This document shows, piece by piece, positions 19,737 to 33,474 of a stretch of 64,000 nucleotides of DNA. Location of the stretch: contig NZ_BNAS01000001.1 of the NCBI RefSeq assembly GCF_014653785.1, forward strand, positions 434,001-498,000. Direction: 5' to 3'. The stretch's first letter is position 1. Every line of letters starts with the position of its first letter. The DNA comes from Promicromonospora soli. GTDB lineage: Bacteria; Actinomycetota; Actinomycetes; Actinomycetales; Cellulomonadaceae. Position numbers and translations under genes: made by a program. The notes under the pieces are model-generated. The model was not told the DNA's origin. It saw nothing but the letters and a program-made list of their open reading frames with translations, and did not search any database.

Positions 19737-20999
19737 CTAGTGCTGGTAGGCGTCGAGCGCCTGAGTGATGGTGTCGGCGATCAGCTCGACCTCGTCCTCG
19801 GTGGTGACGAAGGGCGGGCAGATCTGCAGGGTGTTGTCGTGGATGACCCGGACAAGCACTCCGGCATCGGTGCAGGCCTCGGCGATCGCGTCGCCGTTGA
19901 TGCCCTCGTGCAGGTGGACTCCCGCCATGAAGCCGGCTCCGGAACGCACCTCCTCGACCAGCTCGTGGTCACGCAGGGGCTCGACCGCCTTCGCCAGCAC
20001 GGTCTCGAGCCTGCCCGCCTGCTCGACCAGGCCCTCCTCGTCGATCACGTCCAGGTTGGCGAGGGCCACCGCGCAGGCCGTGGCGTGACCGGAGTACGTG
20101 AGGCCGTGACGGAAGATCGGCGCGTCCGCGCCCTCGAAGAACCGCTCGGAGATGCGTGGCGACACGAGGACCCCGCCCAGGGGGGCATAGCCGGAGGTGA
20201 TGCCCTTGGCCATCGTCACCATGTCCGGCTGGATGTCCCACCGGTGCGACGCGAACATCTTCCCGGTCCGGCCGAAGCCTGTGATCACCTCGTCGGCGAT
20301 GAACAGGATGTCGTGGCTCCGGCAGAGCTCCTGCAGCCCCTCGAGGTATCCCTCGGCGGGACCGATGACGCCCCCCGTGCCGATGACCGGCTCGGCGATG
20401 ATCGCGGCGATGTTCTCCGGGCCGATCTCGGCGACCGAGCGTCGGACCGCCGCGATGTCGTTGGTGGCGACCCGCGCCGTCTCCGGGACCAGCGAGGAGG
20501 TGCCGTAGCCGTCCCGGTTGTACTGGAGGCCGGCCACGCTGGTCCCGTAGGCGTGGAGACCGTGGTAGGCACCGACGCGGCTGAGGATCATCGTCTTCTC
20601 GGGGCGGCCCTCGAGCTGCCAGTGCCGGCGCGCCAGCTTGCACGCCAGGTCGACCGAGTCGGAGCCGCCACTGGTGAGCATGACCTTGGCGTCCGGCACC
20701 GGCCCGATCTCAGCGAGGCGGTCGGCGAGGTGGAGGGCAGGCTCGTTCGCGAAGCGACCGAACGTGTGGTACGTCTCCAGCTTCCGCATCTGGTGATATG
20801 CGACATCGGCGAGACGAGCCCGTCCGTGGCCGATGTTCGCGTGCCACAGGCTCGCGGTGGCGTCGAGGAGTCGCCGCCCCGTCGAGCTCGTCAGCCACGC
20901 ACCCTCACCTCCCGTCAGCACGAGGCGCTTGGCCCGTGCGGTCGGCATCTGTGCCTGCGGGTTCCAGAGCGCGTCGCCCGTTGGTTTCGTCGTTGCCAT
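19737..20999 (-). CDS. Class III (omega) aminotransferase, pyruvate-dependent type
   Basis: 420 residues. The PLP lysine is K265 (MAKGITSGYAPLG), D236 in IADEVITGFGRTG binds the pyridine nitrogen, and the phosphate-binding turn is SGGSDSVD (110-117). The N-terminal LDATASLWHANIGHGR is typical of omega-amino acid:pyruvate transaminases. First gene of the five-gene operon. No ribosome site precedes the ATG; a 10-bp palindrome begins two bases upstream of it, and a TACAGT box stands about eight bases upstream, so the message may be leaderless and repressed by the divergent GntR protein. The amino donor is unknown (beta-alanine, GABA, taurine and diamines are all possible). Confidence 0.88.
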   Translation of the reverse strand: MATTKPTGDALWNPQAQMPTARAKRLVLTGGEGAWLTSSTGRRLLDATASLWHANIGHGRARLADVAYHQMRKLETYHTFGRFANEPALHLADRLAEIGPVPDAKVMLTSGGSDSVDLACKLARRHWQLEGRPEKTMILSRVGAYHGLHAYGTSVAGLQYNRDGYGTSSLVPETARVATNDIAAVRRSVAEIGPENIAAIIAEPVIGTGGVIGPAEGYLEGLQELCRSHDILFIADEVITGFGRTGKMFASHRWDIQPDMVTMAKGITSGYAPLGGVLVSPRISERFFEGADAPIFRHGLTYSGHATACAVALANLDVIDEEGLVEQAGRLETVLAKAVEPLRDHELVEEVRSGAGFMAGVHLHEGINGDAIAEACTDAGVLVRVIHDNTLQICPPFVTTEDEVELIADTITQALDAYQH

Positions 21000-21001
21000 G
21001 T

Positions 21002-21024
21002 GCGCAACTGTAGGACAGTTGCGC
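21002..21024. promoter_or_regulatory. GntR operator between aminotransferase operon and its regulator
   Basis: A perfect inverted repeat: GCGCAACTGT (21002-21011), spacer AGG, ACAGTTGCGC (21015-21024). It lies in the 65-base divergent gap between the aminotransferase start (20999) and the GntR start (21065) and overlaps the likely -10 region of the leftward promoter. This is the expected place for autoregulation and repression of the operon. Confidence 0.75.
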
Positions 21025-21064
21025 TGTAGTGCACAAGACCCTCGGAGGGACTATTCTTCATGGC

Positions 21065-21736
21065 ATGTCAGCACTCGAAGGTCTGGTGGTACAGCGGTCC
21101 ACGGCCGCGCAGCAGTTGGCCGCGGGCCTCGCCTCGCGCATCGTCGCCGGCGCATTCGCGCCGGGCGACCGGCTTCGGGAGAGCGCGATAGCGACGGAGC
21201 TGGGTGTCGCCCGCAACACGGTGCGGGAGGCGGTCCGGATCCTCGAGCAGAGCGGGCTCGTGCAGTATCAGGTCAACCGCGGCGCCGTCGTCATCTCACC
21301 TACGCCGGAGAGGGTCGACGCCCTCTACACCGCCCGCGAGGTGCTGGAGACCGCGGCCGTTTCCGGCCCGGCGGGGAAGCCTGAGCTGGCGGCACTGAGG
21401 ACGGCGTACGACGAGCTCGTCGAGGCAGCGGCCTCGCACGACCCGCTTCGCATCGTCGACCTGGACCTGGCATTCCACTCCGCGATCGTCGCGATGTTGC
21501 GCAGCAGCCGCCTCGACGAGTTCTACGCCGAGCTCATGGTCGAGCTCCGCTTCTACCTGACCGTGCTGTCGTTGGAGGATCGCGAGTTCGAGCACCCCGA
21601 CGACATCCTCGCGGAGCACCGGGTGATCCTCGAGGCCATCGAGTCCGGCGACACCGCCACCGCAGTCCAGCAGGTTCGCAGCCACGTCGAGGAGAACGCC
21701 AGGCGGGTCATCGAGATCCTGAACGGTCGCGACTGA
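21065..21736 (+). CDS. GntR family regulator, FCD (FadR-type) subfamily
   Basis: 223 residues from ATG 21065. The winged helix-turn-helix is about residues 12-76 (RLRESAIATELGVARNTVRE). An all-helical FCD effector domain follows, whose metal ligands are visible as DLAFH (D134, H138), with later histidines in AEHRVIL and VRSHVEE. FCD regulators usually bind organic acids or amino acids. Divergent from the aminotransferase operon across a perfect palindrome, so it most likely represses that operon and itself until the substrate binds. GGAGGG lies 15 bases before the ATG, rather far; a GTG at 21029 in the same frame is an alternative start. Confidence 0.88.
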   Translation: MSALEGLVVQRSTAAQQLAAGLASRIVAGAFAPGDRLRESAIATELGVARNTVREAVRILEQSGLVQYQVNRGAVVISPTPERVDALYTAREVLETAAVSGPAGKPELAALRTAYDELVEAAASHDPLRIVDLDLAFHSAIVAMLRSSRLDEFYAELMVELRFYLTVLSLEDREFEHPDDILAEHRVILEAIESGDTATAVQQVRSHVEENARRVIEILNGRD

Positions 21737-21826
21737 GCTCGAAGCCGCAGCTTCCTCGCCGGCCAGTCTCCCCGGAAGGGGCAGTCACTTCGTTGCGCTG
21801 CGCCACCCGGGACGACCGGATCCCGG

Positions 21827-22981
21827 TCATCTGCTCGTCGATGGCTCCAGCAGATGCCGGCCGGGCGCCAGGAACGACACGTCCCGGCCGGTCGAACCAT
21901 TCGTGGCGAAGTCGGCGGCGATCTCGCCCATGACCGTGGCGAACTTGAAGCCGGAGCCCGAGAAACCACAGGCCACCACGAGCCGAGCATCGGAGGTGGC
22001 GGGACCGAGCAGCGGCATGCTGTCAGGGCTGAACCCCTCGACCCCCGTCTGGAGGCTGACCGGATCCGGGTGCAGGCCTGGGAAGAATTCGCGGACCGCG
22101 GCCGCCACCCGGGATGCGAACGCCGGGTCGACGACGCGGTCGACGTTGGCGAGATCGCGGACCTCCGGGTGCGTCTCGAACTTGATGCCGACCTTCACCG
22201 TGGCACCGTCGAGCGTGGGGAACCCGTACGCCTGGATGTCGCCTACGCGCTCGAAGACGCCGAACACGTCCGGGTGGTAGTCGCGCGGGCTCCGGGCGAG
22301 GTACCAGGCCTGCACGATCCGTCGGGGGACGACGCGCTGACCCGCCCCGGGGACGAGCTCGCCCGCCCACGGACCCGGTGCGAGCACGACGCGGTCGTAG
22401 ACCTGTTCGCCGCCCCGCGTCACGACCGCGACACCGGTTTCCCGCGGCTCGACCGCGACCACCTCGGTGTACGGGCTCACGGCGGCACCGAGGGCGGACG
22501 CGCGTTCCACGGCGGTGGCGACGCTCGCCTCGGGCCGTAGGTATCCCGCCAGGGGGTCGGTCACGCCGACGTCGCCGGCCCGTATCACGTGCTGCGGGAA
22601 ACGCGGGCCGAGGGCGGCGGCGTCGAGCACCTCGTGAGGAAGCCCGTTGTACCGGGCGGACGCGTTCGCAGCGAGGATCTCCGGAGTGCCCTCCGGCCCG
22701 AGTACCACACCGCCGGTCTGCCGGAGCAGCTCGCGCTCGGTGTGCTCCTCCAGCTCGCGCCACAAGCCGAGAGCCTCCACGGCCAGCGGCGTGAGGCGAG
22801 GCTCACGCTGGCTCTGTACCGAGAAGCGGCGAGTCTGACCCGCAGAGGCACCCCGGTCGTGCGCAATGCCGAAGCGCTCGTAGCCGTGGACGGTCACGCC
22901 CCGTTCCGCCAGGCGCCACAGGGTCATGGACCCGATCGCCCCCAGGCCGATCACGGCCACGTCGGCTCCACTCGTGCTCAT
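21827..22981 (-). CDS. SolA-like FAD-dependent amine/sarcosine oxidase
   Basis: 384 residues. The dinucleotide-binding motif is GLGAIG (12-17), with the family pattern GASAGQTRRFSVQSQRE next to the flavin and CGFSGSGFKFATVMGE near the C-terminus. This is the monomeric sarcosine oxidase/N-methyltryptophan oxidase group, which oxidises C-N bonds of N-methyl or cyclic amino acids to imines with H2O2 production. The cysteine that covalently holds FAD in monomeric sarcosine oxidase (CMYTxTPD) is replaced by glycine in GVEGFSPD, so FAD is probably not covalently bound. Start ATG 22981 follows GAGAGGACG. Divergent from the HAD hydrolase gene, with two GntR operator copies between them. Confidence 0.85.
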   Translation of the reverse strand: MSTSGADVAVIGLGAIGSMTLWRLAERGVTVHGYERFGIAHDRGASAGQTRRFSVQSQREPRLTPLAVEALGLWRELEEHTERELLRQTGGVVLGPEGTPEILAANASARYNGLPHEVLDAAALGPRFPQHVIRAGDVGVTDPLAGYLRPEASVATAVERASALGAAVSPYTEVVAVEPRETGVAVVTRGGEQVYDRVVLAPGPWAGELVPGAGQRVVPRRIVQAWYLARSPRDYHPDVFGVFERVGDIQAYGFPTLDGATVKVGIKFETHPEVRDLANVDRVVDPAFASRVAAAVREFFPGLHPDPVSLQTGVEGFSPDSMPLLGPATSDARLVVACGFSGSGFKFATVMGEIAADFATNGSTGRDVSFLAPGRHLLEPSTSR

Positions 22982-23108
22982 CCGCTCGTCCTCTCCCAAG
23001 ACAGTTGGGCGCTGGCGCCCTGATCACCGTCGGCCTCGTTGCCGGCGCTCGAGCTTCGGGCCGCCGGGTCGCGCCGGGCTCCCAACGCAACCTACGAGCG
23101 TCGGTGTC

Positions 23109-23119
23109 GATTGTCAACA
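23109..23119 (+). promoter_or_regulatory. Operator copy 1 of the HAD/flavin-oxidase regulon
   Basis: GATTGTCAACA, embedded in the near-palindrome ATTGTCAACAAT (23110-23121), lies 128 bases before the SolA-like gene start. The flanking 14 bases 23106-23119 recur exactly inverted at 23225-23238. Confidence 0.7.
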
Positions 23120-23224
23120 ATTTCAGCAGCACGCGCGGTTTGTCGTGGGACGCAGCGGCGCCTGGGTGCGGCAAGCCCAAGGGATCGCGGCCCCGGACCT
23201 GCACATCGCCCGCAGACTGTGGAC

Positions 23225-23235
23225 TGTTGACAATC
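23225..23235 (-). promoter_or_regulatory. Operator copy 2 of the HAD/flavin-oxidase regulon
   Basis: TGTTGACAATC, the exact inverse of copy 1, lies 59 bases before the HAD gene start at 23294. Its position suits repression of the rightward promoter. Confidence 0.7.
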
Positions 23236-23293
23236 GACGAGATAGGGCCATACGGTCCCTTCGGTAAACCCAGCACCCGAGAGGACCCCCCTG

Positions 23294-23968
23294 ATGAGCC
23301 ACCCGAACTTCAGGCCGAAGTACGTCTCGTTCGACTGCTACGGCACCTTGATCAGCTGGCCGATGACGCCCATCACCAAGGAGCTGGTCGGTGACCAGAT
23401 CCCCGCGGAGCACTGGGACCAGTTCGTCGCCGAGTTCCGCGGGTACCGCTACGACCAGGTCAGCGGGGAGTACTACCCCTACGAGCAGGTGCTGCAGGAC
23501 TCCTTCGAGCGGGTCTGCCGCAAGTGGGGGATCGAGGCCGACCCCAACGCCGGGAAGCGCTTCGCCGACGGCGTCAGGAGCTGGGGCCCGCACCCGGACG
23601 TGCCCGCGCCGCTGAAGAAGATGGGCGAGCACTACAAGCTGGTGATCCTCTCCAACGCCGACGACTCCTTCCTCGCCGAGAGCGTGCCCCGGCTCGGAGC
23701 CGACTTCCACGCCGTCTACACCGCCGAGCAGGCAGGCTTCTACAAGCCCCGGTACGCCGCGTTCGAGTACATGCTCGACCAGCTCGATGCATCGCCGGAG
23801 GACTTCGTGCACGTGTCGTCGCACACCCGCTATGACCCTCTGCCGATGCACGACATGGGTTTCCGCAACCTGGTGGTCCTGGACCGTGGCTGCGACCCGG
23901 TGCCGGACGGCTACGGCCTCGTGACGGTCAAGTCCCTGGACGAGCTCAACCTCATGCTCGGCATCTGA
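23294..23968 (+). CDS. HAD hydrolase, haloacid dehalogenase type II-like (paralogue 1)
   Basis: 224 residues. HAD motifs: nucleophile D14 (SFDCYGTL), S120 (LSNAD), K151 (FYKPR) and acidic D181. The overall length and cap match L-2-haloacid dehalogenases. The dehalogenase motif with an asparagine two residues after the serine (S175, N177 in L-DEX) reads SSH (175-177) here, so haloacid dehalogenation is doubtful and another C-X or phosphoester bond may be the target. The gene at 29982 is a gap-free paralogue, with more than half of residues identical by eye. ATG 23294 follows GAGAGGA. It diverges from the SolA-like oxidase with shared operators. Confidence 0.85.
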   Translation: MSHPNFRPKYVSFDCYGTLISWPMTPITKELVGDQIPAEHWDQFVAEFRGYRYDQVSGEYYPYEQVLQDSFERVCRKWGIEADPNAGKRFADGVRSWGPHPDVPAPLKKMGEHYKLVILSNADDSFLAESVPRLGADFHAVYTAEQAGFYKPRYAAFEYMLDQLDASPEDFVHVSSHTRYDPLPMHDMGFRNLVVLDRGCDPVPDGYGLVTVKSLDELNLMLGI

Positions 23969-24410
23969 CCAAGGACACGTCTTCGTAGGCGATCGGCTGC
24001 TGTCGGAGTCACCGCTGCGCGGTCATCCCCTGCCACTCTCGAGCCGGGAGCCCTGTCCATCCCGGTGTTTTCGAGCCCCAGCTCTGGAATGGCCCGGCTT
24101 GCATCGGTGCTTGCACAGGCTGCCGCCCCGCGGCGAGCTGTCCTTCTCCAGCGCCGAGCCGATCAGGTGGATTCGAGCCCGGCCTGGAAGACGACGAACC
24201 GCCGCCGTCATCGTCGTCGGCTGGGTGCAAGGCGCTGCACCGCCTGCCTGAACGCCGACGAACGTGAGGCGACCAACCGGCTTTGATGGTCGGATGGGAT
24301 CATGGAAGCCACCACTCCTTCGTCCTCCGGGGCGCCGCAGGAGGTAGTCCTGAGCCCGCGTGGCGTGCTGGACACGGCCTTGCCCCCGCAGCTCGAGACG
24401 GAGGCCGAGC
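23969..24410. other. 442-base gene-free stretch
   Basis: Between the HAD gene stop and the desaturase start. The frames are short and overlap on both strands with no protein-like composition. It holds no RNA gene, operator copy or strong hairpin that I could recognise. The last 15 bases contain the desaturase ribosome site (ACGGAGG). Confidence 0.5.
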
Positions 24411-25508
24411 GTGTCCGCTTCGAGTGAGAACCCCCAGGTTCCGGGGTCGGTCGAGCGCGTACGCCGGGCCGCGCGTCGGGTGACGAACGACTACTCGGTC
24501 CTCGCGCGCATCGTCCGCGAGTCCGGCCTGCTGCGACGGCGCCACGGCTACTACTGGACGCGGTTCGGCCTGACGATCGGCGCCCTGGCGGGTGTGTGGG
24601 TCTGGATCGTGCTGCTCGGCGAGTCGTGGTGGCAGCTGGCCCTTGCGGCAGCGATGGCGTTCGTCCTGGCGCAGCTCGCGTTCCTCGGGCACGACGCCGC
24701 GCACCGGCAGGTCTTCCGCTCACGGGCGTGGAACGACTGGGCCGCGCGCATCCTGGCGAACGCGTTCGTGGGGCTGAGCTACGGATGGTGGACGACCAAG
24801 CACAACGCGCACCACGCTGCGCCGAACCAGGAGGGACAGGACCCGGACATCTCACCAGGGGTCATCGCGTTCACTCGCGCGGTCATGGCCGGCCGCCGGG
24901 GCTGGCGGGGATGGCTGGCTCGCCGCCAGGGCTGGTTCTTCCTCCCCCTGCTCACGCTGGAGGGCCTCAACCTCCACGTCGCGAGCGTACGCACAGTTCT
25001 GGGCCGCGAACCGTTGCCCCATCGCTGGGTCGAGGCACCTGTCCTGCTCACGCGGCTCGCCATGTACGTCGGCGTCCTCTTCCTCCTGCTGCCACCACGG
25101 CTCGCGATCGCGTTCCTCGCGGTACAGCTCGCCGTGTTCGGCGTGCTCCTGGGCGGGGCGTTCGCCCCGAACCACAAGGGCATGCCGATCGTCCCGGCGA
25201 CCGCCGAGATCGACTTCCTCCGCCGGCAGGTGCTCATGTCCCGCAACATCCGGGGCGGCTGGGTGATCGACCTCCTGATGGGCGGGCTGAACCGGCAGAT
25301 CGAGCACCACCTGTTCCCCAGCATGCCCCGGCCCAACCTCAAGCACGCTCAGTCCCTCGTGCGTGAGTACTGCTCCCAGCTCGGCGTGGCCTACACCGAG
25401 GTCGGATTCTTCACGTCCTACCGGATCGTCATCTCCTACCTGAACAACGTGGAGCGACAAGCCCGCGACCCCTTCACCTGCCCCGTCGCGGGTATGTACG
25501 GTCGCTGA
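24411..25508 (+). CDS. Membrane acyl-lipid/acyl-CoA fatty acid desaturase
   Basis: 365 residues from a GTG behind ACGGAGG. The three histidine boxes of the diiron desaturases are present: GHDAAH (93-98), HNAHH (131-135) and QIEHH (296-300). The last, with Q in place of the first His, is characteristic of front-end and linoleoyl-type desaturases such as the DesA3 group. Pairs of hydrophobic helices lie between the boxes (about 52-90 and 205-250). It inserts a double bond into membrane lipid acyl chains using O2 and an electron donor, probably for fluidity control. No ferredoxin reductase gene is next to it. It looks unrelated to the surrounding amine cluster. Confidence 0.9.
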   Translation: MSASSENPQVPGSVERVRRAARRVTNDYSVLARIVRESGLLRRRHGYYWTRFGLTIGALAGVWVWIVLLGESWWQLALAAAMAFVLAQLAFLGHDAAHRQVFRSRAWNDWAARILANAFVGLSYGWWTTKHNAHHAAPNQEGQDPDISPGVIAFTRAVMAGRRGWRGWLARRQGWFFLPLLTLEGLNLHVASVRTVLGREPLPHRWVEAPVLLTRLAMYVGVLFLLLPPRLAIAFLAVQLAVFGVLLGGAFAPNHKGMPIVPATAEIDFLRRQVLMSRNIRGGWVIDLLMGGLNRQIEHHLFPSMPRPNLKHAQSLVREYCSQLGVAYTEVGFFTSYRIVISYLNNVERQARDPFTCPVAGMYGR

Positions 25509-25515
25509 GGCCCCC

Positions 25516-25538
25516 ACGCCCGGCCGCGCACCGGGCGT
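25516..25538. terminator. Hairpin after desaturase gene
   Basis: ACGCCCGG (25516-25523) and CCGGGCGT (25531-25538) form a perfect 8-bp stem with a 7-base loop, 7 bases after the desaturase stop. Confidence 0.55.
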
Positions 25539-25607
25539 AGGATCGGACTATCCGGGCGAACGCGCCCCAGCTGAGGTGCGCGGGCCCGGAACCGCAAGGA
25601 GGCCATC

Positions 25608-25943
25608 TTGGCCACCCACCCCCTCGGCGCCGCCACCAACGGTGATCCCGGCAGAGCAGTCCCCGGTCGAGACGCTGTGCCGCGTGCCGGCCGGAGGGCT
25701 CCACGCACTCGTGCGGGCGCGGCCTGGGTAGGGGTCTGCATCGCGGCCCTCGTCCTGGTCGCTCTGATCATCTTCATGCTGCAGAACACCGAGCTGGTGC
25801 TGGTGACGTTCCTCGGCATGCAGGGATCGGTGCCCCTTGCGCTCGCCCTTCTCATCGCGGGGATCGGCGTCGGGATCGTCGCCATGGTCATCGGCACCAT
25901 CCGCATCAGTCAGCTCCGACGACGCATCTCCCACAGCTCCTGA
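25608..25943 (+). CDS. LapA/DUF1049 family small membrane protein
   Basis: 111 residues. A polar Arg/Pro-rich N-terminus is followed by two membrane helices (about 39-58 and 72-95) with the LapA-domain core FMLQNTELVLVTFLG and a basic C-terminus, RISQLRRRISHSS. LapA (YciS-like) proteins help assemble envelope lipopolysaccharide in Gram-negatives; in actinomycetes their role is unknown. Translation most likely starts at a TTG (25608), because AAGGAGG lies 7 bases upstream and no ATG or GTG fits. Not obviously part of the amine cluster. Confidence 0.8.
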   Translation: MATHPLGAATNGDPGRAVPGRDAVPRAGRRAPRTRAGAAWVGVCIAALVLVALIIFMLQNTELVLVTFLGMQGSVPLALALLIAGIGVGIVAMVIGTIRISQLRRRISHSS

Positions 25944-26008
25944 CCGGGCACCGCCGGGGAGCTCACGGACCGCGCGAACCCGCGCGTCCTTGACCACCCC
26001 CGCACCGT

Positions 26009-26181
26009 TCGGAGTGTCATCCGGAACAGCCGAGTGTCGCCGCCCACGGCGCTGCGGGGGTGTGCGCCGGCGACGCAGCCTCGAAGCCGACCGCGGGGAC
26101 GCTCAGCTTCGAGGCCTGCCACAGCGCCATGGTGCCGACACTGCCGACGCCGATGACTGCGAGCGGACCGTCCGACGTCAC
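26009..26181 (-). pseudogene. Remnant of a SolA-like flavin oxidase gene
   Basis: A GTG at 26181 overlaps the stop of the ABC ATPase gene (GTGA), as in a coupled operon. It opens [20 protein letters not shown], a GxGxxG FAD-binding start that lines up with VAVIGLGAIGSMTLW of the intact oxidase at 21827-22981. After VGFEAASPAH the frame shifts at five Cs (26056-26060). The next frame reads PRSAVGGDTRLFRMTLR, the equivalent of the flavin-proximal loop GASAGQTRRF. Similarity ends near 26009 and the rest of the gene is gone. It shows that the transporter operon once ended with its own oxidase. Confidence 0.7.
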
Positions 26182-26945
26182 AGCACTTTTTCCAGGAACT
26201 TCTGCGTCCGTGGTTCCTTGGGGTTGCCCAGCACCTCAGTGGGCGGTCCTTGCTCCACGACCACGCCGCCGTCCATGAACATCACGGTGTCGGCCACCTC
26301 CTTGGCGAAGCCCATCTCGTGAGTGGCCACGAGCATGGTCATCCCCCGCTCGGCCAGGCCCTTCATGACGGCGAGGACCTCCCCGACCCGCTCCGGGTCC
26401 AGGGCACTGGTCGGCTCGTCAAAGAGCATCACGTTCGGATCCATGGCGAGGGCACGGGCGATCGCCACGCGCTGCTTCTGGCCGCCCGAGAGCTGCCACG
26501 GATAGTGGTCGCCGTGTCCGGACAGGCCGACGTCTGCCAGCAGCGAGTCCGCTCGCAGGGCTGCCGTCTTCTTGGCGACACCCTTGACCAGCACCGGGCC
26601 GGCCATCACGTTCTCCCGCGCGGTCATGTTCGGGAACAGGTTGAACTGCTGGAAGACCATGCCGATCCGGGTGCGCTGCATCGCCACCTCCTTGCGGTTG
26701 CGCGCGCGGTAGGCGGTCTCGGTCTCGACGAACCCGAGGTCCTCGCCGTTCACCCTGAGGATCCCCCGGTCGGCCTCCTCGAGCCCGTCGATGCAACGGA
26801 GCAGCGTGGATTTGCCCGACCCGCTGGGGCCGATGACGCACACGATCTCGCCACACTTGACGTCCAGGTCGATGCTGCCGAGCACCACCCGGTCGCCGTA
26901 GCACTTGCGCAGCCCGCGGGCGTAGACGGTTCCGTCGCCGTTCAT
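26178..26945 (-). CDS. Polar amino acid-type ABC transporter ATP-binding protein (GlnQ/HisP family)
   Basis: 255 residues. Walker A GPSGSGKS (39-46), Q-loop [10 protein letters not shown], signature [15 protein letters not shown], Walker [12 protein letters not shown], and the switch histidine in VATHEMGF. It energises import through the permease encoded just upstream; the ATGA start/stop overlap (26942-26945) indicates coupling. It belongs to the three-gene leftward importer transcribed from the binding protein gene at 28817, whose promoter carries a copy of the GATTGTC(A/G)ACA operator. The substrate is probably an amino compound consumed by the flavin oxidases of the cluster. Confidence 0.92.
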
Positions 26946-27826
26946 CGCGCCTCACCACCCAGCGGCACAGGGTCGACCGCGGCCTCGCTGCTCACCCGGG
27001 ATTTCACGAGGGAATACCTCTTCTCGATCAAGGACTGGGGGTAGCTGAGGGCCAGCGTCATGATGAGGTACCACAGACAGGCCACGATCAGCAGCGGGAT
27101 GGTCTGGTAGGTGCGGGCATAGATCAGCTGGGTGCTCTGCAGCAGCTCGGCCACACCCAGCACGCTGACCAACGACGTCTCCTTGAACATCCCGATCATC
27201 TGGTTCCCGGTCGCCGGGACGACGGTGGGCATCGCCTGCGGGATGATCACCCGGAACAGCTTCTTCCGGGCGCTCATCCCGAGCGAGTCGGCCGCCTCGA
27301 TCTGGCCCTTGTCCACCGACGCGAAGCCACCCCGGATGATCTCTGCGAGATAGGCCGCCTCGTTGAGCGACAGGCCGATGATCGCCGCGGTGGTCGCACT
27401 CATCAGCGCGTTCACGTCGACCGCTTGCGAGATGCCGGTGAACGGGATCCCGACCGCGATGTTCGGGTACAACGCGGCGATGTTGAACCAGAAGATCAGC
27501 TGCACCAGTACCGGGGTTCCCCGGAAGAAGGTGATGTAGCCCGACGCCAGGAGCTGGACCGGGCGCACCGTCGAGGCCCGCATCACTGCGACGACCATGC
27601 CCAGGATGCCCCCGAAGAGCATCGCCAGGATCGTCAGAACGATGGTCAGCCGTAGGCCTTCCAAGATGGTCGGAGCCGTGAAGTACTGGCCCACCACGTC
27701 CCACTGATAGTTCTCGTTCGTGACCAGGGTATGGGCCAGCCCGCCGGCAACCAGCACGCACACCGCCCAGGCCACGTACTCGAGCGGTCCGCGCCTGTGC
27801 AGCCGCGGCTTGTCAGTGGCATCCAT
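26942..27826 (-). CDS. Polar amino acid-type ABC transporter permease
   Basis: 294 residues from ATG 27826 (GAGGAGG eight bases upstream). About five to six membrane helices, beginning with [15 protein letters not shown], and the His/Glu-type permease EAA loop [20 protein letters not shown], which docks on the ATPase. The string [16 protein letters not shown] is typical of the HisM/GlnP family. A single permease gene suggests a homodimer. An upstream GTG-type start at 27880 would add 18 polar residues but has a poorer ribosome site. Confidence 0.9.
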
Positions 27827-27884
27827 AGCCTTCGCCTCCTCAGTTCGGTCGCGTTCGACCAGGCCGGTATCTGGAGCCATCGGT

Positions 27885-28817
27885 CTAGTTCAGAATGTTC
27901 GAGGTGGGAATGGCCCCCGCGCCCAGCCCCCACCGGTCCAGCGCGGCCTGGTACGCCCCGTTGTCGATCAGGTGCTGCATCGCGGCATGCAACGCCGGGG
28001 TGAGCGGGGAGTCGTTGGGAAGGCCGAGGGCGACGATGGAGTCGCCCTCCTTCTTCTGGTACTGGGGCGAGAGCAGCTCGAACGCCTGCGGCTGCTGCTG
28101 CGCCGCCCAGGCCAGCTGCGAGGTGTCGGAGAAGATGCCGTCAATGCGCTTCGACGCGAGCTGGGTGAGCGCACCCTGGATGTCCGCCAGGACCACGGCG
28201 TCGACAGCGTCCTCGCCGTTGGCCTCACACGTCTGGGAGATCTCGGGCAGGAACGTCTCCTGTTGCGTGCTGCCCGACATCACCGAGATCTTCTTGCCAC
28301 AGATGGACTGGTCGGCCAGACTCAGGCCCTGGGGGTTGCCAGTCGCCACGATGAGGGACGACCCGGCCTCCCAGTAGGTGATCATGTCCAGCACCTCGAG
28401 CCTCTCGGGGGTCGGACTCATGTTGGTGGCGGTGAAGTCGTAGCGGTGAGCGGCGATGCCGGGGATCACTCCGTCCCAGGTCACGTTCTTGACCTCGACC
28501 TCGAGCCCGAGCGCCTCACCCAACAGGTGGGCGACGTCGACGTTGTAGCCGACGGGCGTCTTGTTGTCCTCGGCGAGGAACGAGGTGGGCGGGTAGTGCA
28601 GGTCCGCGGCCATGGTGATCGTGCCGCCCTCCTGCAGGTCTCCCGGCAGCAGCTTGATCGCCTCGGGGTCGGGCTGTACCTGCGGCAGCTCCTCGGCGGA
28701 GCCGGCGTCGGCGCCAGGCGCCTCCTGGGTGGCGGCGGGGGCGCTGCACCCGCTGGCCGTCATCAGCAGCGCGGCGCCAAAGACTGACGCGGCGAGCTTG
28801 CTTCGTTGCACTCTCAT
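27885..28817 (-). CDS. Polar amino acid-type ABC transporter substrate-binding lipoprotein
   Basis: 310 residues. A signal peptide ends in the lipobox-like ASGC, followed by an Ala/Glu-rich linker and a family 3 solute-binding fold (TITMAADLHYPPTSFLAEDN, then VGYNVDVAHLLGEALG). These are the typical entry strands of amino acid-binding proteins. Start ATG 28817 follows GAAGGGAA. It captures the substrate outside the membrane for the permease and ATPase encoded downstream. An operator copy lies 55 bases upstream of the start. Confidence 0.9.
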   Translation of the reverse strand: MRVQRSKLAASVFGAALLMTASGCSAPAATQEAPGADAGSAEELPQVQPDPEAIKLLPGDLQEGGTITMAADLHYPPTSFLAEDNKTPVGYNVDVAHLLGEALGLEVEVKNVTWDGVIPGIAAHRYDFTATNMSPTPERLEVLDMITYWEAGSSLIVATGNPQGLSLADQSICGKKISVMSGSTQQETFLPEISQTCEANGEDAVDAVVLADIQGALTQLASKRIDGIFSDTSQLAWAAQQQPQAFELLSPQYQKKEGDSIVALGLPNDSPLTPALHAAMQHLIDNGAYQAALDRWGLGAGAIPTSNILN

Positions 28818-28871
28818 GTCGTTTCCCTTCAGGCGGTGAATGGCTTGCCACATACAACCATGATGATCGCC

Positions 28872-28882
28872 GATTGTCGACA
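28872..28882 (+). promoter_or_regulatory. Operator copy 3 of the HAD/flavin-oxidase regulon
   Basis: GATTGTCGACA, one base different from copies 1 and 2 and the exact inverse of copy 4, stands 55 bases before the importer operon's first start codon. Confidence 0.7.
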
Positions 28883-28961
28883 CTCGCCTGTAAACATCTC
28901 GTTTCACTGGAGCTTGAGCGCGCCCGGAGTTCGGGAGCAGCCCTACGCCACTCGAACGACG

Positions 28962-29016
28962 GACGCCCGTCACCGGGAGATCGACAGAAAACTGAGGATC
29001 TCCGGGGACGGGCGTC
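28962..29016. terminator. Long hairpin terminator after the GntR gene
   Basis: GACGCCCGTCACCGGGAGATC (28962-28982, about 21 bases) pairs with 28997-29016 almost fully, with one bulge, around a 14-base A-rich loop. It lies 81 bases beyond the stop of the leftward GntR gene and would keep its transcript out of the importer promoter. Confidence 0.65.
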
Positions 29017-29097
29017 GTGGTAGTGGCTCGCGCACGAGTCGCGCCTACGCGGATCAGTGCCCGGCGAGCGCCGGGGCAGCCAGGTTCGCGCGCGGGG

Positions 29098-29787
29098 TCA
29101 GTTGCTAGAGGGCTGCGACCCGGTGAGATGGCTCGCGGCCAGGGTCAGGTGGTCGTTGATGGCCTTGAGCAACGTCTCTCGCTCACCGGCCGCGAGGGCG
29201 TCGATGAGGACGCCGTGCTCGTCGACGAGCTCTTCGCCGGACGGGAGTGCGATCTCGAGCCTGTTGATGCACGCCAGGGTCTGAGCCGAGAGGATCGAGT
29301 AGGCGTCGTCGAGGCGCGAGTTGCCCGCAGAGGCAACCAGCGTGGTGTGAAACTCCAGGTCAATGGCCGATATCTTCCGGCGATCGCCCTGCTTCAGAGC
29401 GATGCGCAGCCTGTCCAGCACCGCCCGCAAGGCGTCAGTCGCACGGGCCCGAGTGCCCGGCCCGCCGTCGATGATCCTTCCGGCAGCGTGGCTCTCGATC
29501 GCGCATCGTGCGTCGTAGATCTCCCAGATGTCCGAAGCCGTGAAAGCCGCCACCGAGACACCCCGGTTGCGCGCAGAGACCAGCAGCTTCTGCTGGACGA
29601 GCTGCTGGAGCGCCTCGCGCACCGGGGCACGGGACACGTCGAGCAGCTCGGCGATCCGAGTTTCAGCCAGCGGTTCGCCGGGCCTGAGCCGCCCCTCGAT
29701 GATCATCTGCCGCAGCTCTTCGCTGATGCGATCAGAGGTCGACTTCCGCTCGAACGTCTTCAGCCCACTTAGACCCGACACAGCCAC
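29098..29787 (-). CDS. GntR family regulator, FCD subfamily (regulator of the HAD/flavin-oxidase cluster)
   Basis: 229 residues from GTG 29787 (GAGGGGAG upstream). The winged helix-turn-helix is about 14-78, with recognition helix VSRAPVREALQQLV. The FCD domain carries DLEFH (D143, H147) and later histidines for a metal and effector. The gene lies between the importer operon and the second HAD operon. Copies of one 11-base motif sit in its own promoter and in front of the importer, both HAD genes and the SolA-like oxidase, so this protein is the likely common repressor. The effector is probably the imported compound or a breakdown product. Confidence 0.88.
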   Translation of the reverse strand: MAVSGLSGLKTFERKSTSDRISEELRQMIIEGRLRPGEPLAETRIAELLDVSRAPVREALQQLVQQKLLVSARNRGVSVAAFTASDIWEIYDARCAIESHAAGRIIDGGPGTRARATDALRAVLDRLRIALKQGDRRKISAIDLEFHTTLVASAGNSRLDDAYSILSAQTLACINRLEIALPSGEELVDEHGVLIDALAAGERETLLKAINDHLTLAASHLTGSQPSSN

Positions 29788-29870
29788 GATCGACTCCCCT
29801 CGGTCACCGCCGGCACCGCTGGTCGGCCGCCGCCACGTTGCCTCCAGCATTCTCTGCCCCCAGCAGGCAA

Positions 29871-29903
29871 CTGTCAACAGCGTTCTGCCGACTGTCGACA
29901 ATC
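29871..29903. promoter_or_regulatory. Operator copy 4 plus a related half-site
   Basis: TGTCGACAATC (29893-29903) is the exact inverse of copy 3. CTGTCAACAG (29871-29880) is a related palindrome on the same DNA face, about two turns away. They lie between the divergent GntR gene (start 29787) and second HAD gene (start 29982), fitting joint control of both. Confidence 0.7.
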
Positions 29904-29981
29904 GTCAGGTCTTGCGCTATGTTCGGTGCACGCCGACGACGGCGCCCGCACGACCGCTCCGCACACCGACTGGAACGAACG

Positions 29982-30656
29982 ATGTCGACCTCAATCCCCC
30001 GCCCGCAGTACGTGTCCTTCGACTGCTACGGCACGCTGATCTCCTTCGAGATCGTCAGCACCACCCGTCGCCTGCTCGGCGACCGTCTGACCGAGGACCA
30101 GATCGAAATCTTCCTCACTGACTTCCGCAAGTACCGCTACGACCAGGTCTGCGGCGAGTTCTACGCCTACGACCAGGTCCTGCACGACGCCTACGCACGT
30201 ACCTGCAAGAAGTGGGGGCTCGAGGTCAACGAGGACGCCGGCCAGCAGCTGGCCGCCGCGGTGTACTCCTGGGAGCCGCACGACGACGTTCCCGCGCCGC
30301 TGAAGAAGCTCGGCGACAACTTCGCCCTCGTGATCCTGTCGAACGCCGACACCAAGTACCTCGACGTCTCCGTCCCCAAGCTGGGGGCGGACTTCCACGC
30401 GGTCTACACCGCGGAGCAGGCCGGCTTCTACAAGCCGCGCTACCAGGCGTTCGAGTACATGCTCGACCAGCTCGGGGCCAAGCCGGAGGACTTCCTCCAC
30501 GTCTCCTCGCACGTGCGCTACGACCTGATGCCCGCCGACGACCTCGGGTTCACGAACAAGGTCTACCTCGACCGCGGCTACGACGTTCAGAGCCCGGCCT
30601 ACAACTACACCACCGTAAAGTCCCTGGACGAGCTCAACTCGCTCCTCGGCATCTGA
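29982..30656 (+). CDS. HAD hydrolase, haloacid dehalogenase type II-like (paralogue 2)
   Basis: 224 residues, collinear without gaps with the HAD protein at 23294. Identical blocks include VSFDCYGTLIS, DVPAPLKK, LSNAD, FHAVYTAEQAGFYKPRY, FEYMLDQL and TVKSLDELN. Nucleophile D14, K151 and the same SSH (175-177) substitution of the dehalogenase Ser-x-Asn pattern are kept, so both copies share an unusual active site. It heads a rightward operon with an OrdL-like oxidase and an aldehyde dehydrogenase. Start ATG 29982 has only a weak GGAACGA site. Its role may be to remove a halogen, phosphate or other leaving group before or after amine oxidation. Confidence 0.85.
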   Translation: MSTSIPRPQYVSFDCYGTLISFEIVSTTRRLLGDRLTEDQIEIFLTDFRKYRYDQVCGEFYAYDQVLHDAYARTCKKWGLEVNEDAGQQLAAAVYSWEPHDDVPAPLKKLGDNFALVILSNADTKYLDVSVPKLGADFHAVYTAEQAGFYKPRYQAFEYMLDQLGAKPEDFLHVSSHVRYDLMPADDLGFTNKVYLDRGYDVQSPAYNYTTVKSLDELNSLLGI

Positions 30657-30679
30657 CCCGGCGCACCTCAGGAGGAAAT

Positions 30680-31957
30680 GTGAAGCTCACGCCCTACTGG
30701 CTCGACACCGCGACGCCGTCCGGTGACTACCGCCGGACCCCCGTGCCCGAGCGCGCGGACATCGCCATCGTCGGCGCCGGCTTCACCGGCCTGTCCGCTG
30801 CCCTCGAGGCCGCGCAGCACGGCGCATCCGTGGTCGTGCTCGACTCGCACACGGTCGGCTGGGGCGCATCCGGTCGCAACGGCGGTATGGCCACGACCGG
30901 TCTCGCGATCGGGCTCGGCAAGGCCATCAAGCGATACGGCCAGGCCCGTGGCCTCGAGATGTTCTCGGAGTACAACCAGGCCATCGACACGATCGAGGAG
31001 CTGGTGAAGGAGCACTCGATCGACTGCGACTTCCAGCGCTCCGGCAAGCTGACGCTGGCCATGAACGCCAAGCAGGTCGGCCAGATGCGTCAGACGCAGG
31101 AGACGCTGGCGAAGCTCGCGGACTACTCCGTGACCGTCGTCGACAAGCCGGACCTCCACAGCGAGATCGGCACCGACTTCTACGCCGGCGGCATGGTGGA
31201 CCCGTTGGGGGCTGGGGTCCATGTCGGCAAGTTCGTGCACGGGCTCGCCGAGGCCGGCACCCGGGCAGGGGTCACGATCTGCGAGGACGCCCAGGTCACC
31301 GAGCTGGCCGCCCGTCCCGGAGGCGGTCACGCGGTCCGCACGACGCGCGGCGTGATCGACGTCGACCGGGTCCTGGTCGCGACCAGCGGCTACACCGGAT
31401 CGCTGACGCCGTGGCTGCAGCGGCGGACCATCCCGGTCGGCAGCTTCATCATCGTGACGGAGCCTCTGCCGCTCGAGACGGCCCAGCGGATCCTGCCTCG
31501 CAACCGGCAGGCCGCCGACAACAAGATGCTCACGTACTACTTCCGCCTGACGCCGGACAACCGCCTGCTCTTCGGAGGCCGGGCCAGGTTCGCGCTGTCC
31601 AGCCCGGACTCCGACCTCAAGAGTGCCGAGATCCTCAAGCGCGCAATGAGCACGTTGTTCCCCTATCTCTCCTCGGCGCGCGTCGACTACACCTGGGGCG
31701 GGCTCGTCGACCTCACCATGGACCAGATGGTGCATGCCGGGGAGCGCAACGGGGTGCACTACTCGCTCGGCTACAGCGGCCACGGGGTCCAGATGGCGAC
31801 CTACATGGGCAAGCAGATGGCGCTGTCGATGCTCGGGAAGCCGTCGCGGAACCTGTGGGAGCACCTGCCGTACCCCGCCGTCCCCGGCCACTTCGGACCG
31901 CCTTGGTTCCTTCCGATCATCGGCGGGTACGCCAAGGTCGTCGACCGGTTCAGCTGA
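30680..31957 (+). CDS. FAD-dependent amine oxidoreductase, OrdL/PuuB (gamma-glutamylputrescine oxidase)-like
   Basis: 425 residues starting at GTG 30680 behind AGGAGG. The FAD motif is GAGFTG (32-37), and the hallmark GWGASGRNGG (60-69) matches OrdL/PuuB/DadA-type oxidases; GYSGHGVQMATYMGK near the C-terminus binds the flavin. These enzymes oxidise a primary or secondary amine to imine or aldehyde. It lies 23 bases after HAD paralogue 2 and 14 bases before an aldehyde dehydrogenase, so the likely sequence is amine to aldehyde to acid. There is no gamma-glutamylputrescine synthetase gene here, which argues against the standard Puu pathway. Confidence 0.88.
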   Translation: MKLTPYWLDTATPSGDYRRTPVPERADIAIVGAGFTGLSAALEAAQHGASVVVLDSHTVGWGASGRNGGMATTGLAIGLGKAIKRYGQARGLEMFSEYNQAIDTIEELVKEHSIDCDFQRSGKLTLAMNAKQVGQMRQTQETLAKLADYSVTVVDKPDLHSEIGTDFYAGGMVDPLGAGVHVGKFVHGLAEAGTRAGVTICEDAQVTELAARPGGGHAVRTTRGVIDVDRVLVATSGYTGSLTPWLQRRTIPVGSFIIVTEPLPLETAQRILPRNRQAADNKMLTYYFRLTPDNRLLFGGRARFALSSPDSDLKSAEILKRAMSTLFPYLSSARVDYTWGGLVDLTMDQMVHAGERNGVHYSLGYSGHGVQMATYMGKQMALSMLGKPSRNLWEHLPYPAVPGHFGPPWFLPIIGGYAKVVDRFS

Positions 31958-31971
31958 CGAGGAGTCCAGAC

Positions 31972-33474
31972 ATGAGCGCATCAAACCAGTGGGTGGTGAC
32001 CGAGGACGTCGCCGCCGAGCCTCGGCTCGTCAGCGATCCTGCCCCCGACCTGTCCGTGCCCGGCGGGGCTTTCATCGACGGCTCCTGGCAGCGCGACGAC
32101 CTCAGGCTTCCGGTTACCGATCCGGAGGACGGTCGGCTGCTGGGGTACGTCGCTGACTCGACCCCGGCGGACGTCGCGGCTGCGGTGTCCGGCGTCCAGG
32201 AGTCGCTCGGAGGAGAGGACTGGCCGCTGTGGGCCCGCAGCGAGGCACTCCACCAGGCGTCACGGCTGCTGGCGCAGGACTCGGCCCGGTTCGCCCACCT
32301 CATCGCCTCCGAAGGTGTCAAGACGCTCGCGGAAGCGCGGCGCGAGGTGGTCCGCTGTGTGGAGACCCTGCGGCTCTCCGCCGAAGCCGGGCCGGTCCTC
32401 ACCGGTGAGACGATCCCGTTCTCGGCGAGCCGGAGCGGTCGCGGCAGGGTCGGCTGGTTCACCCGCGAGCCCGTCGGCGTGGTCGCCGCGCTCACCTCGT
32501 TCAACGACCCTCTCAACCTGGTGGCGCACAAGCTCGGGCCGGCGCTGATCGGCGGCAACGGCGTCGTCCTCAAGCCCTCGGACCACACGCCGCTCACTTC
32601 GTTGGCGTTCGTCGATCTCCTGCTCTCGGCCGGCGTGCCGGCGGGACGAGTCGCCGTGGTCTGCGGGAGCGCCCGGGCCGGGCAGGCACTGGTTACCGAC
32701 GAGCGGGTCGCGCTCGTGTCCTTCACCGGTGGGCCGAGGACCGCGGCGAAGATCACCGCGGCCGCGGGACCGCGGAAGATGCTGATGGAGCTCGGCGGGA
32801 ACAACCCGACGATCGTGTGCGCGGACGCGGTCCTCTCCGACGCCGTCGAGGCTGTGGTCGACGGCGCGTTCGGCGTCGCCGGGCAGAACTGTCTGTCGGT
32901 CCAGCGTGTCTACGTCCATGCCTCGGTCTACGAGGAGTTCCTCCAGGACACCGTCGCCCGAACCAGGCGGCTCAGGGTCGGCAGCAAGCATGACCCGGGG
33001 ACGGACGTCGGTCCGCTCGTCAGCGAGGCGGAGGCACAACGCGTCGAGCTGTGGGTCGGCGGGGCGGTCGCAGACGGAGCGACGGTCCACGCGGGCGGGA
33101 TCCGACGCGGCGCCTTCTACGAGCCGACGGTCCTCACCGGCGTCGCCGACGGCTCGCAGGTGCTCACCGACGAGGTCTTCGGCCCGGTCGTGACGATCAT
33201 CCCCTTCGAGGACCTCGACATCGCGATCTCGGCATCCAACAACACTGAGTACGCGCTCCAGGCGGGGGTCTTCACCCAGTCCGTCGAGACGGCGTTCGCT
33301 GTGTCCGCTCGGCTGGTCGTGGGGGCCGTCGTCGTCAACGGCACGAGCGACCTGCGCGTGGACTCCATGCCGTTCGGCGGCTTCAAGAACTCGGGCATCG
33401 GACGAGAAGGGGTGCAGTTCGCCGTCGAGGCCATGACGGAACCGAAGGCCACGATCGTGAACCTGGTCTCATGA
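31972..33474 (+). CDS. NAD-dependent aldehyde dehydrogenase
   Basis: 500 residues. ALDH catalytic residues: N178 (TSFNDP), K201 (LKPSDH), E273 (MELGGNNP) and nucleophile C307 (GQNCLSVQRV). The GQNC-LSVQR pattern is nearer to lactaldehyde/glyceraldehyde-type and phosphonoacetaldehyde-type ALDHs than to GabD. ATG 31972 follows GAGGAG by 8 bases. It ends the operon HAD, flavin oxidase, ALDH and probably oxidises the aldehyde released by that oxidase. The start has an extra N-terminal stretch of about 30 residues before the usual ALDH opening (FIDGSW). Confidence 0.9.
   Translation: MSASNQWVVTEDVAAEPRLVSDPAPDLSVPGGAFIDGSWQRDDLRLPVTDPEDGRLLGYVADSTPADVAAAVSGVQESLGGEDWPLWARSEALHQASRLLAQDSARFAHLIASEGVKTLAEARREVVRCVETLRLSAEAGPVLTGETIPFSASRSGRGRVGWFTREPVGVVAALTSFNDPLNLVAHKLGPALIGGNGVVLKPSDHTPLTSLAFVDLLLSAGVPAGRVAVVCGSARAGQALVTDERVALVSFTGGPRTAAKITAAAGPRKMLMELGGNNPTIVCADAVLSDAVEAVVDGAFGVAGQNCLSVQRVYVHASVYEEFLQDTVARTRRLRVGSKHDPGTDVGPLVSEAEAQRVELWVGGAVADGATVHAGGIRRGAFYEPTVLTGVADGSQVLTDEVFGPVVTIIPFEDLDIAISASNNTEYALQAGVFTQSVETAFAVSARLVVGAVVVNGTSDLRVDSMPFGGFKNSGIGREGVQFAVEAMTEPKATIVNLVS

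Follow-up and report, generated by a model that had tools for sequence, protein, structure and literature searches.

HAD hydrolases for free azetidine carboxylate are already known, as described in part of one report (PMC8016842). Here we describe a gene cluster of Promicromonospora soli that carries two HAD type II hydrolases, HAD1 (23294-23968, forward strand) and HAD2 (29982-30656, forward strand), whose nearest solved relative is the L-azetidine-2-carboxylate hydrolase of Pseudomonas (AC-hydrolase; 3smv, 8ywo). The cluster lies within a stretch of 64,000 nucleotides (contig NZ_BNAS01000001.1, positions 434,001 to 498,000; hereafter the window) of a 5.38 Mb genome, and plain coordinates are those of the window. 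Unlike the known azetidine hydrolase, the two HADs are set among N-alkyl-type oxidases, an ATP-binding cassette (ABC) importer and the genes of a putative D-malate route. Our reading, which is tentative and falls a little short of an even chance, is that the region forms a single catabolic cluster for the import and breakdown of N-alkylated azetidine-2-carboxylates, nicotianamine and the mugineic acids being the likeliest of these, and that the insertion of a module extended it at a later time.

Two other described routes resemble parts of the cluster. In carnitine breakdown, a malic semialdehyde dehydrogenase yields D-malate and a beta-decarboxylating dehydrogenase converts it to pyruvate, according to part of a published account (PMC11353897). 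The window's cluster is like the end of the L-carnitine pathway in its C-N cleavage, C4 hydroxy-aldehyde, aldehyde dehydrogenase, beta-decarboxylating D-malate dehydrogenase and formation of pyruvate. The carnitine pathway differs in using the other malate semialdehyde isomer and in cleaving the C-N bond with the monooxygenase CntA/CntB, whereas the pathway proposed here would do so with a hydrolase and a transaminase. The degradation of aminopolycarboxylate chelators involves a flavin oxidase of the same fold as one in the cluster (iminodiacetate oxidase IdaA, 6pxs; 19% identity in the fold alignment), which cuts the secondary-amine C-N bond of a chelator fragment. To our knowledge, neither a HAD nor a dehydrogenase of the TTC type discussed below takes part in that degradation.

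The HAD hydrolases and their nearest relatives

The window proteins were scanned against the Pfam and NCBIfam profile models. HAD1 and HAD2 are both open, as the preliminary description of the locus had stated, and are 62% identical over 229 amino acids. Both exceeded the NCBIfam HAD_type_II cut-off of 125.4 bits (137.4 bits for HAD1, 150 bits for HAD2). When tested as L-2-haloacid dehalogenases, with which they share this family model and the overall fold, both scored above the TIGR01428 cut-off; the SSNxxD last motif, which has a catalytic role in L-2-haloacid dehalogenase, was absent from both.

The closest solved relative of HAD2 by sequence was L-azetidine-2-carboxylate hydrolase (E 2.4e-25), followed by 8hp5 (E 3e-24), which was deposited as an (S)-2-haloacid dehalogenase. 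The next named dehalogenase was 7arp (E 1.3e-9), and cis-epoxysuccinate hydrolase, at E 5.6e-8 versus 2.4e-25, was not the closest. The predicted HAD2 model had a mean predicted local distance difference test (pLDDT) score of 93.5, and Foldseek analysis with this model placed azetidine hydrolase first (E 6.8e-17). The catalytic frame of HAD type II enzymes (nucleophile Asp, Ser-Asn and Lys) was present by alignment, and the FDCYGTLI, LSN and YKP blocks were common to the cluster HADs and azetidine hydrolase. The Aspergillus enzyme AzhA can be likened to them by description only.

All 80 relatives had HVSS[HS]xRYD, or a close variant of it, as the last motif. Among the control type II HADs, the last motif was readable in 16 of the 30 sequences supplied (27 controls and three of our own), and these carried S[SG]NxxD in 11 cases, AAHxxD in three and neither in two. 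In 3smv and 8hp5 the motif has the same length as in the cluster HADs, one residue longer than in the controls, with other residues. Because of these differing residues, the window proteins are called azetidine-hydrolase-like and not members of that group.

A tree of 70 rows, rooted at its midpoint and with two partial reference rows and a tool warning on joined long branches, contained three well-supported groups. These were the cluster HADs; 3smv and 8hp5 with three distant proteobacterial HADs; and eight controls on a longer stem. With this root, the cluster-HAD clade is closer to azetidine hydrolase than either is to the eight control type II HADs, and the controls bearing S[SG]NxxD stand apart. 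The distant proteobacterial HADs represent a second type II lineage present in some proteobacterial clusters (L084:4943-5683, L017:6492-7202 and L061), and group with the azetidine hydrolase references on long branches.

The entry 8hp7 is a mutant of 8hp5, which falls in the azetidine-hydrolase clade, and its title names a trapped (2R)-4-amino-2-hydroxybutanoic acid. The R configuration is thus expected of a ring-opened product, and such a product would become D-malate.

Since the S[SG]NxxD motif is missing and azetidine hydrolase is the nearest solved relative, hydrolysis of a C-N ring bond is preferred over removal of a halide, and the HADs probably open an azetidine-type ring. The preliminary description had offered halide removal or cleavage of a similar bond; the second proposal stands in this more specific form and the first is disfavoured.

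Conserved company of the HAD family

The neighbourhoods of 80 loci, the best 80 of 543 confirmed HAD relatives from named genomes and not a fair sample, were examined up to 10 kb on each side of the HAD. The loci span 32 genera or metagenome-assembled genome (MAG) groups, including Actinobacteria, Burkholderiales, Rhizobiales, Pseudomonas and Alteromonas. Neighbours were called by tblastn at 60 bits or above using reference proteins from the window and from named plasmid clusters, so that unlike proteins would escape; 21 of the loci were cut by contig ends and 59 were of full length.

A flavin oxidase was found in 71 of the 80 loci, an aldehyde dehydrogenase in 58, a class III aminotransferase of the cluster's type in 49 and a TTC dehydrogenase in 43 (51, 49, 40 and 34, respectively, in the 59 full-length loci). 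All four occurred together in 27 loci from 18 genera or groups. The pairing with an oxidase was the most constant: 31 of the 32 genera or MAG groups had at least one locus with an oxidase, and an OrdL-type oxidase was the next labelled downstream gene, within 300 bp, in 44 of 80. An oxidase lay within 1.5 kb of the HAD in 63 of the 80 relatives compared with none of 27 other type II HADs, the control loci being drawn from one phylum and some of them cut short. Among actinobacterial members alone, the figure was 23 of 31 against the same 0 of 27. Given the relatedness among the 80 loci, the Fisher value for the pairing (4e-14) overstates independence. The pairing is real and more than chance. 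The preliminary description had proposed this comparison and had named homologues mostly without oxidases as the outcome that would speak against it; the opposite was observed.

The gene sets nearest to that of the window, among the best 80 of 543, were found in Arthrobacter, Rhodococcus koreensis and Sinomonas (L031, L033, L038 and L042). These comprise a regulator, aldehyde dehydrogenase, transaminase, oxidase and importer, followed by HAD, OrdL, aldehyde dehydrogenase and TTC, and two of them (L031 and L033) also carry an aspartase. The set on an Arthrobacter plasmid (L012) lacks the SolA type of oxidase and consists of the importer, HAD, OrdL, TTC, aspartase, aldehyde dehydrogenase and aminotransferase. 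In proteobacterial loci the importer is of the peptide type (SBP5 in 44 of 49) and a GNAT gene is added (43 of 49), whereas the importer is of the polyamine type in several loci of Streptomyces and Saccharothrix.

Relatives of enzymes of the beta-hydroxyaspartate cycle and of hydroxyectoine enzymes (BhcC, BhcB/EutB, BhcD/EutC) accompany other HAD copies, all scoring under the curated cut-offs; none was seen in the window's cluster. A kinase of the aminoglycoside-phosphotransferase type and a class III pyridoxal phosphate enzyme, resembling the PRK06148 pair, adjoin a HAD copy at L013:10879-13409, L027:6131-8439, L028 and L030:10727-13035. The two may act on hydroxylated amino acids as a kinase and a phospho-lyase. 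In the genome G085 (C1:1112000-1171700; L019-L021), four HAD copies were present within ~34 kb, together with a peptide-type importer, a TTC, two oxidases, two aminotransferases, aldehyde dehydrogenases and a BhcC-like aldolase.

The distribution of the family is uneven, with matches at E 1e-25 in four of 396 genomes of a phylum sample and in five of 99 genomes of a sample of relatives, counting the source genome in each. HAD2 relatives (E up to 1e-20) were present on 340 plasmid records, 213 from Rhizobium or Sinorhizobium, with Sinorhizobium meliloti Rm41 among them, and 16 from Klebsiella; many of the listed matches at 47-50% identity are annotated as 'haloacid dehalogenase type II'. The viral sequences gave one pattern match and no relative.

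Gene content, insertion and operator-like sites

The HAD2 half of the cluster reads forward. HAD2 ends 23 bp before the gene of an OrdL-like flavin oxidase (30680-31957; Pfam DAO), which is followed by aldehyde dehydrogenase 2 (31972-33474; Pfam Aldedh, 37% identical to aldehyde dehydrogenase 1). The OrdL-like model (mean pLDDT 90.6) has glycine, sarcosine, dimethylglycine and iminodiacetate oxidases as fold relatives, and the protein reached no NCBIfam cut-off for pipecolate or aminophosphonate oxidases (best 182.4 of 632.8 and 178.4 of 600 bits). An aminophosphonate pathway was also considered and rejected, the phn-type model matches of the GntR, OrdL and aldehyde dehydrogenase proteins all being under their cut-offs. 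Divergent from HAD2 lies a second GntR-type regulator (GntR2, ~29098-29781, reverse strand, start approximate), which is 83-89% identical to its counterparts in the related genomes described below; its class call rests on 30% identity to GntR1 over 217 amino acids by tblastn.

The importer occupies 26178-28817 on the reverse strand and, by Pfam and NCBIfam profiles, is of the amino-acid type, as previously proposed. It consists of an ATPase (26178-26945), a permease (26942-27880) and a substrate-binding lipoprotein of the SBP_bac_3 family (27885-28817), the start of which was moved from the open reading frame start at 28973 to 28817 because of its signal and lipobox.

HAD1 is divergent from a SolA-like flavin amine oxidase gene (21827-22999, reverse strand), so that each HAD adjoins a flavin oxidase as the preliminary description had claimed. 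The SolA-like protein scored 269.3 bits against a cut-off of 257 for the N-methyltryptophan oxidase model (PRK11259/NF008425), which says little on the substrate. Its relatives in the PDB are sarcosine oxidase, NikD and N-methyltryptophan oxidase, and it is 57% identical to an oxidase in the G085 cluster. The regulator GntR1 (21029-21736, forward strand; Pfam GntR and FCD) separates this pair from a run of five genes on the reverse strand. These encode a class III aminotransferase (19737-20999; Pfam Aminotran_3) with PDB relatives that are mostly amine or omega transaminases; an alanine dehydrogenase (18649-19725; TIGR00518, 479.1 bits, cut-off 391.85); and aldehyde dehydrogenase 1 (17138-18628; Pfam Aldedh), which resembles the succinate-semialdehyde dehydrogenases (SSADH) that were its top PDB matches. 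Then follows a beta-decarboxylating tartrate/D-malate dehydrogenase (TTC, 16038-17141), which passed TIGR02089 (484.7 bits, cut-off 470.4), missed NF006048 (480.4 of 501 bits) and matched tartrate dehydrogenase/decarboxylase 3flk best in the PDB (E 2.3e-104). The last gene encodes an aspartate ammonia-lyase of the Lyase_1 family (aspartase, 14621-16054), which passed NF008909 (645.7 bits, cut-off 510) and missed TIGR00839 (564.1 vs 681.2 bits); its counterparts at the equivalent position are 94% identical in G433 and 87% identical in G403. The earlier account of an adjacent operon was right in the four enzymes it named (transaminase, alanine dehydrogenase, aldehyde dehydrogenase and aspartase), and lacked both the TTC gene and the full extent of the operon to 14621.

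The history of the region was apparent from G403, a genome of the same genus, and G433, one of the same family. In both, the whole set is contiguous with a single HAD, in the order aspartase, TTC, aldehyde dehydrogenase, alanine dehydrogenase, transaminase, GntR1, oxidase, importer, GntR2, HAD2, OrdL and aldehyde dehydrogenase. The genes common to the window and these genomes are 76-97% identical with their order kept, except for the resident oxidase, to which the SolA-like protein of the window is just 38-39% identical. The blastn alignment is collinear up to 21740, just past GntR1, and picks up again at 25951 (for 60 bp) and at 26009. The stretch of ~4.2 kb between them (21741-25950) is without a collinear counterpart, and was thus inserted or replaced. 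Besides the SolA-like oxidase and HAD1, it carries a protein with a fatty-acid desaturase domain (24360-25508, forward strand; Pfam FA_desaturase), which is maybe a passenger of the insertion, no link to the pathway having been seen.

At the right-hand edge, a remnant of a sarcosine-oxidase-like gene was identified by alignment to G403 and G433 (25951-26178, reverse strand). It retains the start of the oxidase and a short inner piece, the remainder being gone: 39 residues of the gene proper form part of a 146-residue alignment to G433 that is 86% identical, the first part of which overlaps the ATPase gene in a different frame. The other matches are of 23 residues at 83% and of 60 bp of DNA at 85%. 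As only these pieces remain where collinearity resumes, the 'decayed third oxidase' of the preliminary description, which is real and longer in the two relatives, is by sequence the resident oxidase broken at the insertion. In G433 (C61, L155) the resident oxidase beside the importer has one in-frame stop, and the G403 copy is open. The stop in G433 and the broken copy in the window suggest that this oxidase may be dispensable.

The two HADs had been described as duplicated modules, a claim that was not supported. HAD1 is placed with proteins of Nocardioides and Streptomyces in the tree, and HAD2 is on its own branch in an unresolved fork with Amycolatopsis and the remainder. This placement and the single-HAD clusters of the two relatives rule out a recent tandem duplication, and module 1 (the SolA-like oxidase and HAD1) looks like the insertion of an already distinct lineage.

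A ATTGTCRACAAT-like palindrome precedes the SolA-like gene and HAD1, precedes the binding-protein gene and sits between GntR2 and HAD2. The sites lie at 23108-23123 between the SolA-like gene and HAD1, at 23221-23236 upstream of HAD1, at 28871-28886, ~50 bp upstream of the binding-protein gene, and at 29868-29883 (weak) and 29889-29904 (strong) between GntR2 and HAD2. Of this last pair, the strong site alone passed the genome-wide and relatives scans. The 16-base pattern matched eight times in the window compared with 2.2 expected, with one match outside the region, and none of 100 shuffles reached eight. With up to one mismatch, the whole genome had 12 distinct places, four in the region, four at a HAD module on contig C4 and four elsewhere; all four full matches were at the region or the contig C4 module. 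With a reversed control pattern, the match counts were 3 and 3, compared with 8 and 11. The sites of the window itself served to define the pattern, so that only those on contig C4 represent independent support. G403 and G433 also have the palindrome at the corresponding spots, ahead of HAD2 and ahead of the gene for the binding protein. The four Arthrobacter, Rhodococcus and Sinomonas loci, the richest in sites of 14 scanned, had 19 sites compared with 0.05 in shuffles that kept single-base composition only. As the window modules, the importer and the contig C4 module share these sites, which are kept in relatives, a single regulon covering all of them is suggested.

The contig C4 module (L018:9418-14902) is a third HAD-OrdL module, with a GntR gene, a small protein, a D-threonine-aldolase/BhcC-like gene and a short-chain dehydrogenase/reductase. 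The position of the small protein matches that of an annotated L-PSP endoribonuclease on the Arthrobacter Hiyo8 plasmid (L012), and similar modules were present on that plasmid and in G433 (L157) and G023 (L023).

Proposed route and rival explanations

From these observations we infer the reactions, the substrate and the choice of binding regulator. The ABC importer would bring an N-alkyl azetidine compound into the cell. The SolA- and OrdL-type oxidases would act on the N-CH2 bonds in its 3-amino-3-carboxypropyl arms, cleaving them to release aspartate semialdehyde and finally L-azetidine-2-carboxylate. Hydrolysis of the C2-N bond by a HAD would invert the configuration and give (R)-4-amino-2-hydroxybutyrate; alternatively, ring opening may come first and the oxidases after. 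The class III transaminase would use pyruvate to give 2-hydroxy-4-oxobutyrate, with alanine dehydrogenase recycling the alanine; the SSADH-like aldehyde dehydrogenase would form D-malate; and the tartrate/D-malate dehydrogenase would release pyruvate and CO2. It is the TTC gene that indicates these likely intermediates, and we regard the D-malate route as somewhat better supported than not. The arms would pass from aspartate semialdehyde to aspartate, by an aldehyde dehydrogenase, and then to fumarate by aspartase. A GntR-type regulator would control the cluster at the palindromic sites. Fumarate, pyruvate and ammonia are plausible end products, the preliminary description having named C4 acids, ammonia and pyruvate. 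Its view of one regulated catabolic region for an imported amino compound, with flavin oxidases accompanying the HADs, is supported, and, as it stated, no named pathway with exactly such a gene set was found.

In nicotianamine, two aminobutyrate units come after an azetidine carboxylate, according to part of a published description (PMC10341464). One azetidine and two aminocarboxypropyl arms would need enzymes of the kind present here, which the two oxidases, two aldehyde dehydrogenases and aspartase fit. Hydroxylated mugineic acids would yield 3-hydroxyaspartate-type units and would need enzymes for these, which the relatives near other HAD copies may supply. A nicotianamine or mugineic-acid metallophore is nevertheless a conjectural substrate, for which we put the chance at rather under half. 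Soil microbes readily break down mugineic acids, and a proline-ring analogue seemed longer-lived in soil, as inferred from leaf greenness, in the portions of PMC7946895 that bear on this. The P. fluorescens strain SBW25 was reported to consume phytosiderophores, and the authors cite a single other study on degrading isolates, without genetics, in the portions of PMC7786132 concerned. P. putida strains have been reported as non-degraders. Among the matches listed, at the level of titles and the starts of abstracts in the open-licence literature, no bacterial genes for nicotianamine or mugineic acid breakdown were found.

Other explanations were weighed, beginning with the chemistry of the HADs. 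They could be true dehalogenases, or epoxysuccinate-type hydrolases making a hydroxy acid or tartrate for a tartrate dehydrogenase, an enzyme that the TTC family includes; this comes close to the preliminary description. The HAD_type_II scores and the closeness of cis-epoxysuccinate hydrolases by fold are in line with this, and the nearest other solved relatives (8hp5-8hp7) are named haloacid dehalogenase. We consider it improbable: the S[SG]NxxD of most readable controls was missing in 80 of 80 relatives, which disfavours a canonical dehalogenase, azetidine hydrolase is favoured by ~16 orders of magnitude in E over the next dehalogenase outside the clade, and an amine transaminase, the amine oxidases and an importer of the amino-acid type are out of place in such a pathway. 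Several points also weigh against ring opening itself. HAD2 is only ~30% identical to azetidine-2-carboxylate hydrolase, and the last motifs SSHVRYD (HAD2) and SSHTRYD (HAD1) agree with AESLYHD of 3smv in length and mostly differ in residues, for which reasons the substrate of HAD2 may differ. By fold, the epoxysuccinate hydrolases (E 4.6e-16) and dehalogenases (3.5e-15) nearly equal azetidine hydrolase, and this small margin means that fold alone does not separate the two activities. The name given to 8hp5 and 8hp7 by their depositors and the midpoint root, partial references and long-branch warning of the tree count on the same side.

Two unlikely alternatives, which we hold equally so, accept the amine setting with another substrate. 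The cluster could serve free azetidine-2-carboxylate or simple derivatives, in detoxification or assimilation as in the Pseudomonas soil strain and with Aspergillus AzhA, the oxidases treating a co-occurring amine. The HAD relationship fits, as do a known route to 2-hydroxy-4-aminobutyrate with subsequent transamination and the putative Mpr1-like acetyltransferases among the GNAT-annotated genes of 43 of 49 proteobacterial loci, since Mpr1 detoxifies azetidine-2-carboxylate (both described in sections of PMC8016842). Free azetidine carboxylate, however, requires no N-alkyl oxidase, aspartase, or peptide- or polyamine-type importer, whereas oxidases are the most constant partner and three importer types recur. 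The other possibility is a general pathway for secondary amines or N-alkyl amino acids, opine-like or aminopolycarboxylate and without an azetidine ring, with the HAD hydrolysing another bond. The oxidase relationships of the OrdL model and the SolA-like score are consistent with it, and an Acidovorax binding protein is weakly related to nickel/metallophore binders and to AgaA, an opine binder; it leaves the azetidine-hydrolase-like HAD, the shared member, and the TTC unexplained. That the modules are unrelated catabolic islands adjoining by chance seems very improbable. Module 1 was inserted and HAD1 is of a separate lineage, as such an account would have it, but the other genes, the resident oxidase aside, keep their order and identity in G403 and G433, the operator-like sites are common to the modules, and a similar set recurs in Arthrobacter, Rhodococcus and Sinomonas.

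The reading as a cluster for N-alkylated azetidine-2-carboxylates has observations against it as well. Nine of the 80 loci had no oxidase in the DNA examined, and TTC was absent from 37, including all four Pseudomonas loci. Aspartase was present in two of 80 and alanine dehydrogenase in none, so both look like lineage additions. Some carriers (Alteromonas, Litchfieldella) are not obviously rhizosphere organisms, and some are marine. Six of the 14 scanned actinobacterial loci were without an operator, two (L034, L048) had a single weak site away from the HAD, and none was near the HAD in the scanned Streptomyces and Saccharothrix loci; TTGTnnACAA-like sites are, moreover, common for the GntR-type regulator class. 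The biodegradation assay did not include a natural phytosiderophore, as far as the relevant part of PMC7946895 goes, and none of four SBW25 genes induced without iron is annotated as a HAD or flavin oxidase (PMC7786132, Table 2).

If the N-alkylated azetidine reading is correct, the cluster may represent the first genetic basis of bacterial catabolism of nicotianamine and mugineic-family phytosiderophores, a claim that we hold to be slightly more doubtful than the substrate itself. It would combine an azetidine-ring hydrolase, N-alkyl oxidases and a D-malate route, be patchy in soil and root bacteria including symbiosis plasmids, and draw on extra HAD, kinase/phospho-lyase and 3-hydroxyaspartate-type modules for hydroxylated members. 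Confirmation of the substrate would make azetidine hydrolase with chelator-type oxidases a new named pathway, and, if the reading holds, the plasmid proteins annotated as 'haloacid dehalogenase type II' would open a strained amine ring and not remove halide. The gene set, with its marker enzyme and operator-like sites, makes phytosiderophore breakdown directly testable. Such consumption bears on the iron supply of grasses and the use of chelator fertilisers, as parts of two reports indicate (PMC7946895, PMC7786132), and bacteria could, if the reading is true, feed on metal chelators from the plants that host them.

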